Positions 17,397 through 19,387 of a stretch of 64,000 nt of DNA are shown here, one piece after another. Numbering within the stretch: the first letter of the stretch is position 1; each line of letters opens with the position of its first letter. The stretch is from positions 186,001-250,000 of the forward strand of contig CACIMN010000001.1 of assembly GCA_902587755.1 (NCBI GenBank), read 5' to 3'. The position numbers and the translations under genes were made by a program. The notes beneath the pieces are model-generated. The model was not told the DNA's origin. It saw only the letters and a program-made list of their open reading frames with translations, and ran no database searches. This stretch comes from an uncultured Pelagibacteraceae bacterium (GTDB lineage: Bacteria; Pseudomonadota; Alphaproteobacteria; Pelagibacterales; Pelagibacteraceae).

Positions 17397-17442
17397 TTGG
17401 TGGGCCCGCCAGGACTCGAACCTGGGACCAATACATTATGAG
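17397..17442 (+). repeat. Left 46-bp direct repeat (att-like; duplicated tRNA-Ile2 3' half)
   Basis: TTGGTGGGCCCGCCAGGACTCGAACCTGGGACCAATACATTATGAG identical to 19460-19505. Confidence 0.95.
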
Positions 17443-17504
17443 AGTCTTGTAGGAACTTAAATTAATATTGAAAAAATTTACTATTTATTAAAACATAAAT
17501 TTAT

Positions 17505-17525
17505 TTACACAATTTGGTATACAAT
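17505..17525 (+). repeat. Left internal 21-bp repeat (putative integrase arm-type site)
   Basis: TTACACAATTTGGTATACAAT; 19/21 match to 19367-19387; made of TACACAAT-N4-TATACAAT. Confidence 0.65.
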
Positions 17526-18088
17526 CAACTGTCTAAATTTTTAATATTTTTGCAAATTTTATTAGCCTCCAATAAAGATGGAACCAATTTATCTAATTTC
17601 CAATTGTTTACAGAAATATCGAAATATCTATTTACTTTAAAATCAATACCATCCACAATTTCAATTTCAAATTTTTGAAATTCCTCATAAAATTCATTCA
17701 AAAAGTAGATGTATTCCTTTATTGGAAATTTACCTAAACTAAAAGCTACTCTGTATCCCATTAAAAAAGGTGAAACACTTATTACTTTTGCAGTCAGATC
17801 TTCGCCGTTTAATTTAATAGGAATATTTCTATCTACTAATTGCTTTATGTCACCAGGTTTTTCATAAGTATAAAAAGTAAAATTGTTATGAACTTTTGTG
17901 CAATTGTCCTCTGCTGAAATAAAGAAATTTAAACTATCCCCATGAATTACTTCTCCAGATACTCTTGCAAAAGAAAGATCTTTAAATCTATCAATAATCC
18001 ATTCTTCCTCCTCTGCTTGAGCTTGATAGGCGAATACAATTAAAAAAAGAAATAAGTGAAGCGATATAATAAGCAAAACTCTTTTCAT
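17525..18088 (-). CDS. Hypothetical exported protein (island cargo)
   Basis: 187 aa with N-terminal signal peptide (MKRVLLIISLHLFLFLIVFAYQAQA); starts in a 4-nt overlap with the upstream 61-aa ORF. Confidence 0.65.
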   Translation of the reverse strand: MKRVLLIISLHLFLFLIVFAYQAQAEEEEWIIDRFKDLSFARVSGEVIHGDSLNFFISAEDNCTKVHNNFTFYTYEKPGDIKQLVDRNIPIKLNGEDLTAKVISVSPFLMGYRVAFSLGKFPIKEYIYFLNEFYEEFQKFEIEIVDGIDFKVNRYFDISVNNWKLDKLVPSLLEANKICKNIKNLDS

Positions 18089-18270
18089 GATTTGAGCTCC
18101 ACTTTGTATCCATTTTTTTTAAATATTTTTATGATTTTATCCCAGACTAAACTGTTGTGTTCACCTGGTAATATTTCGAATTTGAATGTTTTTTTATAAA
18201 CGGGGTCGCAGTTATCATACGCAACGTAAGCACTCACATGACAGTACTTACAGACACGGCCTATTTCCAT
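18085..18270 (-). CDS. Hypothetical 61-aa Cys-containing protein (island cargo)
   Basis: MEIGRVCKYCHVSAYVAYDNC; AGGAG Shine-Dalgarno 9 nt before ATG; ATGA overlap with next ORF. Confidence 0.55.
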   Translation of the reverse strand: MEIGRVCKYCHVSAYVAYDNCDPVYKKTFKFEILPGEHNSLVWDKIIKIFKKNGYKVELKS

Positions 18271-18333
18271 ATATTGGAACTCCTATTGTTGATTGATTTT
18301 TTGAGAGTTAAAAGTTTGTAATTGGTTATGGTC

Positions 18334-18410
18334 TCAATCCTTTTCGTTTTGATCGAATTACGCAACAAGGGAGATAACAAAAAAAGCGGAATACGATAGA
18401 AAAGGATTGA
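18334..18410. repeat. 12-bp inverted repeat TCAATCCTTTTC / GAAAAGGATTGA with 53-nt spacer
   Basis: Arms 18334-18345 and 18399-18410, perfectly complementary; between divergent island ORFs. Confidence 0.7.
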
Positions 18411-18505
18411 AATCCAATGCATGATTCCATTTAAATAATAGCTTATTGGTTTTATTTAGACTCAATTTTGTTTAAATAAAGACTTTAGTTTATTATATTC
18501 AAAAA

Positions 18506-18979
18506 ATGGTTTTTGGACTTTTTAAGGATTATAAAAAAATTGCTGCTGAAGGTATAGACGAGGAATTTAAAGCTTTTGAAAAACTTTTAAAAAGTAAAAA
18601 AGGCAAAATAACTCCAGAAGTTTTTAAAAAAGAATATGAAAAGAAACTTTTTTTCAGAAAAGTAAAATGTGACTTAGGTTTGCGGGATTTTGGCTATGAA
18701 TTTGCATTTAGTGTAAATGATGATTATGTGCCATTTTGGTTCTATGGCTGGTTTAAGAAAAAAAAAATTGATAGCTTTGAATTCTCATGCCTTGATGAAA
18801 GATTCTACAATATAGAGGGTTATTTAAGTCTTAAAGATGGTTCAAGATCAATTGCAGTTATTAATAAAGGTGGTATTGGGATGTATGGAGGTTCAAAAGC
18901 ATTAAAAAAACTATTAATAAAAGATTATGGTTTTGAGGATGAAAAAGGTGGCTTTGTAGATCAAGGTAAACATCTATAA
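18506..18979 (+). CDS. Hypothetical cytoplasmic protein (island cargo)
   Basis: 157-aa ORF, no family recognised. Confidence 0.6.
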   Translation: MVFGLFKDYKKIAAEGIDEEFKAFEKLLKSKKGKITPEVFKKEYEKKLFFRKVKCDLGLRDFGYEFAFSVNDDYVPFWFYGWFKKKKIDSFEFSCLDERFYNIEGYLSLKDGSRSIAVINKGGIGMYGGSKALKKLLIKDYGFEDEKGGFVDQGKHL

Positions 18980-19000
18980 AATTTAAAGATCAATTGTTTT

Positions 19001-19318
19001 ATGATAAATACTATTTTATTTGGTATCGGTATCTTTTTCGTTATTGCCTATGCTTATGGTTATTTAAGTAATCAAGAATACAAATCAAATACGATTTTAA
19101 GGACAATAGTTCATTGGATTATGGCTTTAGGTTTTTTTCTAGTTCATGATGTGCCAGCCATTCATTTACTTTATACTTTTCCGTTAGGTATTGGTTTGGC
19201 TTTTGCAGGTATTAAATTTTATCCACGCACTAATCCAATGACCATTCTTGTAGTGTCAGCAATAATTTGGTCTTTTGTATTGATGGGTTTATCTGATTAT
19301 TTTGGAACTTTTGCATAA
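19001..19318 (+). CDS. Hypothetical small integral membrane protein (island cargo)
   Basis: 105 aa with about four hydrophobic segments. Confidence 0.6.
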   Translation: MINTILFGIGIFFVIAYAYGYLSNQEYKSNTILRTIVHWIMALGFFLVHDVPAIHLLYTFPLGIGLAFAGIKFYPRTNPMTILVVSAIIWSFVLMGLSDYFGTFA

Positions 19319-19366
19319 ATAGTTTTTAAATTACTATCAAGACCAATACACTTCTGATTAATTTTA

Positions 19367-19387
19367 TTACACAATTTCGTACACAAT
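19367..19387 (+). repeat. Right internal 21-bp repeat (putative integrase arm-type site)
   Basis: TTACACAATTTCGTACACAAT; tandem TACACAAT-N4-TACACAAT. Confidence 0.65.

Follow-up and report, generated by a model that had tools for sequence, protein, structure and literature searches.

SAR11 bacteria are among the ocean's most abundant cells, and their streamlined genomes contain few recognised mobile elements. In the stretch of DNA analysed here (64,000 nucleotides from an uncultured Pelagibacteraceae bacterium, hereafter the window), a 2063-bp element lies at a tRNA gene; it has no integrase gene among its ORFs, and a similar 21-bp repeat stands just inside each of its ends. What are these repeats, and how would such an element move? 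The answer in which we place considerable confidence is that they are tandem arm-type sites of a lambda-Int-like integrase, carried by an integrase-less passenger from a family of 1–2.6-kb elements that the integrases of other elements move; both the binding and the movement are inferred.

The target is a tRNA gene with anticodon CAT (19461–19537, minus strand). ARAGORN calls it tRNA-Met, but the acceptor stem suggests tRNA-Ile2: it has the pairs C4-G69 and C5-G68, which, despite the Met call, we take to be the mark of tRNA-Ile2 (CAU, lysidine). A second ACTCATAA-loop tRNA is found elsewhere in the genome, on contig C5. The 3' part of the target gene, ending just past the anticodon, is present as two identical 46-bp cores on the minus strand, one within the intact tRNA (19460–19505) and one displaced (17397–17442), and these form the two element boundaries. 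They overlap a left terminal module of ~130 bp (17399–17528, plus strand) and a right one of ~137 bp (19369–19505, plus strand), which are respectively 77–93% and 84–94% identical to those of most family members. The cargo between them comprises a 187-aa gene (17525–18088, minus strand) whose product has a hydrophobic N-terminus, either a signal peptide or a membrane anchor, and no Pfam, PADLOC or PDB-fold match; a 61-aa ORF (18085–18270, minus strand), 97–98% identical in four other elements; and, on the plus strand, a 157-aa ORF of unknown function (18506–18979) and a 105-aa ORF for a hydrophobic (membrane) protein, also unknown (19001–19318). Neither an integrase nor transfer genes were found among these four ORFs in the ORF list and Pfam results, and PADLOC found nothing in the window cargo. 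Upstream of the 61- and 187-aa genes lies a conserved non-coding module that contains a long hairpin (18297–18482, minus strand), which could be a cis-regulatory RNA. This module (~190 bp) is common to seven elements, and in four of them (G106, G397, G307 and G478) it is inverted relative to the ends. Rfam matches at the right end (HPnc0260 and others) fell below the gathering score and were treated as chance.

The repeats themselves, TTACACAATTTGGTATACAAT (17505–17525) and TTACACAATTTCGTACACAAT (19367–19387), agree at 19 of 21 positions in the same orientation, and both have the layout TACACAAT-N4-TAYACAAT with a 12-nt period. The left one consists of the half-sites TACACAAT (17506–17513) and TATACAAT (17518–17525), the right one of two copies of TACACAAT (19368–19375 and 19380–19387), all on the plus strand; the gaps to the cores are 62 nt on the left and 72 nt on the right. 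Positions, orientation, identity, period and gaps are thus as the original prediction gave them, and its statement that both attachment sites are kept also holds, with identical cores and an arm pair at each end. The same prediction would have failed had the 21-mer been scattered across the genome. With up to three mismatches, the 64-kb window contains two matches against none expected (0 of 100 shuffles), and the entire 1.29-Mb genome holds no others. In 399 genomes of the genus, each of the 17 matches with up to two mismatches lies within ~120 nt of a copy of this tRNA core (proximity was judged by comparing match lists by hand); at three mismatches, sites associated with element ends are mixed with a scattered background. 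The motif pair, in short, occurs only at the element ends.

The window element is one of 21 related integrase-less elements—here called mini-elements—that occupy this CAT-anticodon tRNA in Pelagibacter-type genomes; 19 of the elements fall within the 399-genome sample. Fifteen, including that of the window, have two clear ends, two have strongly diverged arms (G478 and G307), and four are partial (G318, G227, G384 and G281). Complete mini-elements measure 1.1–2.6 kb; at least two cores occur in ~20 genomes of the genus, with readable core-pair spacings of 1.06–2.6 kb. Their ends align across most of the family (~130 bp left, ~137 bp right), but their interiors mostly do not. In all 15 clear-armed elements the arms stand at a fixed offset from the cores: with the core start taken 2 nt further in than above, it is +61/62 nt on the left and −73/74 nt on the right. 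Concordance between the left and right arms of one element is weak (P = 0.03) and was not used as evidence.

The cargo of the family includes secreted or membrane proteins, alpha/beta hydrolases, T5orf172/GIY-YIG proteins and PD-(D/E)XK-type nucleases, and none of the relatives' cargo ORFs was noted as a recombinase. Two cargo proteins, of 250 aa (L116) and 298 aa (L049), match the PADLOC candidate anti-phage families PDC-S02 and PDC-S57. Similar signal peptides (MKKLLGIVVLGLL...) begin otherwise unrelated cargo proteins in six elements (L044, L115, L116, L112, L009 and L111), which suggests, as far as sequence alone can indicate, shared leaders with exchanged mature parts. In a further three cases (L046 and second elements in L049 and L113), small elements carry tandem arms of the TACTCA type, apparently reversed with respect to the core (GTGAGTACC...); a second type of end thus uses the same target. 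A serine-protease-like GNSGGPV motif is present in proteins of two of these three. Among the carriers of mini-elements, only G397 has an integrase of the family discussed below, in a neighbouring island, although its absence from the others was counted on assemblies that are incomplete and in many cases derive from single cells or metagenomes.

In relatives whose site is empty, the core occurs once. The right-end sequence is missing from most loci with a single core, where the upstream gene runs almost up to the tRNA 3' end; that sequence therefore belongs to the element, and insertion was precise at the core. In two cases (G153 and L041) a short scar of end sequence is apparently kept. Elements that share cargo are mostly 90–97% identical over 0.8–1.2 kb, as against 65–77% for their upstream chromosomal flanks: 94.7% against 68.3% for G516/G527, 96.5% against 72.8% for G339/G401, 94.9% against 69.3% for G307/G478, and, for the window element, 92.9% against 77.1% with G516 and 90.0% against 68.0% with G527. 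Because element identity lies so far above that of the host flanks, these elements have moved recently between species. In 150-bp blocks, the identity of such pairs is usually much higher just inside the core than just outside it (98% against 70% on the left side of window/G516), a step that fits site-specific transfer and not linked homologous replacement. Averaged over all element pairs the step is small, since most pairs are old and have no cargo in common.

These data bear on whether the window element might be no more than the decayed remnant of a larger island, immobile after loss of its integrase, with arms that survive by chance. Decay to attachment sites only is the textbook origin of a CIME (PMC5704250), and the host genome has no integrase of the island family. 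Against this, 21 small elements have the same ends around cargo that mostly differs, arms and spacing are both conserved, and elements have recently passed between hosts whose flanks have diverged. Decay alone does not account for repeated recent movement of elements that keep their ends, and we regard it as unlikely. The original prediction had inferred from the intact attachment sites that mobilisation in trans is a better account than random decay; the many integrase-less relatives, with their conserved ends, differing cargo and recent horizontal transfer, favour that inference, with mobilisation and excision themselves still inferred.

It is also conceivable that cargo is moved or exchanged by homologous recombination through the conserved ends and the DNA flanking the tRNA, the 21-mers being mere homology. 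Ends of ~130 bp at 80–90% identity would offer substrate for such events, and the cargo modules are mosaic and sometimes inverted. Most cargo-sharing pairs, however, are much less identical just outside the core and have no linked flank, and homologous recombination leaves unexplained both the insertion into empty sites and the arms that stand beside integrase genes (below). As a full account it seems to us improbable. Because modules are mosaic and sometimes inverted, homologous recombination may nonetheless add to the shuffling of cargo, and exchange between the conserved ends of already resident elements cannot be excluded.

If the repeats are arm-type sites, as we prefer to read them, related sites would be expected beside integrase genes in the same tRNA; unrelated arms there would have counted against the original prediction. 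Integrase-bearing islands occupy this tRNA in four sampled genomes (G156, which belongs to the genus of the window, G397, G472 and G502) and in further records, of which L154 corresponds to the G156 locus. The integrase gene (int) starts ~95–100 nt beyond the core, and immediately 5' of it (~35 nt upstream) stands GTACTCACTCTCGTACTCAA, two half-sites with a 12-nt period, placed about as far from the core as the arms of the mini-elements. A matrix built from mini-element arms ranks this int-proximal tandem first at all seven integrase loci, among up to 17,892 positions. A matrix from the two 21-mers of the window alone places it first at six loci and second at the seventh, and one from arms without ACTC places it first at six and fourth at the other; with 20 column-shuffled matrices it was never first at any locus. 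Several of the seven loci are closely related, so these are not seven independent trials. The islands in the same site carry arms homologous to those of the mini-elements, and, together with the fixed arm-to-core spacing in the 15 clear-armed elements, this gives the arm-type reading good support. In G397 a mini-element directly adjoins such an island. The two complete islands (L181 and L182) measure 18.4 and 18.6 kb; L182 has a similar tandem near its other end too, and the far end of L181 lacks a clear second pair. By eye, both appear to encode DNA cytosine methyltransferases, a protein of 1128–1149 aa and MORN-repeat-like proteins; they are possibly defence islands.

A structural model of the island integrase predicts an N-terminal strand-strand-strand-helix fold, with lambda Int (1z1b) as the best PDB match. 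The model (mean pLDDT 80, pTM 0.54, poor C-terminus) is consistent with an N-terminal domain that binds arm sites. Tandem repeats of 11–13 nt, with other sequences, stand at the same position 5' of int in more distantly related members of the integrase family that use other tRNAs or tmRNA. The related SAR11 integrases L139–L153 have other targets, including a GCC-anticodon tRNA identified by eye, another CAT tRNA and tmRNA, and mostly their own tandem of 11–13 nt just 5' of int. Lambda-type arm regions also contain Xis and IHF/Fis sites, so the 21-mers might instead bind an excisionase, a host factor or a transcription factor, but the tandems 5' of int in the relatives at other tRNAs differ in sequence with each integrase, and a site that follows its integrase makes a pure role of that kind the least likely of the alternatives.

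Which integrase would serve the window element is less clear. Searches of the 399 genomes of the genus, of further genome contigs and of viral contigs yielded none whose arms are exactly TACACAAT, although the peptide patterns used could miss a divergent integrase. The arms of the mini-elements grade from TACACA to TACTCA, so the mover could be either an integrase closely related to the known ones or one with relaxed specificity. The host genome has a single tyrosine recombinase match (317 aa, C2:151143); it falls outside this integrase family, no tRNA occurs in the flanking DNA examined, and it is therefore not a likely mover. A viral origin finds no support: IMG/VR scans with the right end plus core, with the core alone and with the arm alone gave no SAR11 phage, and the four arm matches obtained lie on contigs that have neither a tRNA nor a core, and appear fortuitous. 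Integrases in phage records are too distant (the best, from Pseudomonas phages, is 36% identical), and a search of viral contigs for the integrase yielded one fragment only.

On the preferred reading, a mini-element would consist of two ends of ~130 bp each—core, fixed-length spacer and tandem arms, one pair per end—around exchangeable cargo. An integrase of the lambda Int type would bridge core and arms, and integrases encoded by other elements in the same tRNA would excise and integrate the mini-element in trans. Action in cis is an alternative, where a mini-element and an integrase-bearing island come to lie in tandem after accretion. That such an integrase binds the arms and moves the element is an inference, as is the mobility of the integrase-bearing islands themselves. 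The best model, for which there are no binding or excision data, is that of a CIME-like or MITE-like passenger mobilised by the integrases of these islands or of their relatives.

Carriers of cargo that are only 1–2.6 kb long and have no mobility gene would escape surveys based on integrases, and candidate defence nucleases are among the cargo of some relatives. The small pair of attachment sites (core plus tandem arms), together with the candidate integrases, provides a concrete basis for testing both trans-mobilisation and cargo exchange. We found no description of such mini-elements in SAR11 in the literature searched, which did not cover most subscription journals.

Several known systems share part of this organisation. 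The PICI and PICMI phage satellites (PMC10803314; PMC11389934) are likewise small and helper-dependent; the mini-elements differ in having no integrase, no phage-related gene that we found, and no helper phage in the viral contigs. The Dehalococcoides ssrA islands (PMC3146451) resemble them as multiple islands of variable cargo at one RNA-gene site with a conserved boundary sequence, but use a serine recombinase module that many of the islands encode themselves. Tycheposons, described in Prochlorococcus and also reported in Methylophilaceae, are elements of 4–200 kb with a tyrosine recombinase (PMC10872708). They share with the mini-elements marine hosts with streamlined genomes, a tRNA target and the exchange of cargo genes, and the 18-kb integrase-bearing islands resemble them; the window element, at 2063 bp and without a tyrosine recombinase, does not meet that definition.

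The closest parallels are those named in the model. The window element has the features of a lambda-type attachment site, with a tRNA core duplicated by insertion and distinct arm-type sites flanking the core on both sides. It also meets the structural definition of the cis-mobilizable elements (CIMEs) such as those related to ICESt1 in Streptococcus thermophilus (PMC5704250 and references 79 and 80 therein): mini-elements keep attL and attR without integrase or transfer genes, use an attachment site common to autonomous elements—in the window element, one related to those of the islands at the same locus—and in G397 stand in tandem with one. They differ from CIMEs in being only 1–2.6 kb long, in recurring as a family that has conserved ends of its own around exchangeable cargo, and in mostly lacking a resident partner. 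Nor does their cargo resemble remains of the 18-kb islands; the listed cargo has no obvious correspondence to the island genes, although ancestry by deletion from an ICE or IME is unresolved. With MITEs they share the principle of a short element that keeps only the ends recognised by another element's enzyme, but through a site-specific tyrosine recombinase and a tRNA target rather than a transposase and terminal inverted repeats, and with protein-coding cargo; the window element, with direct rather than inverted ends and with ORFs, is not a MITE in the strict sense. It is possible, though on balance we hold this only tentatively and at somewhat short of an even chance, that the mini-elements are an autonomous lineage of integrase-less cassettes, spreading in SAR11 wholly on borrowed integrases and outnumbering the islands at this tRNA, and thus the counterpart of MITEs in site-specific recombination.
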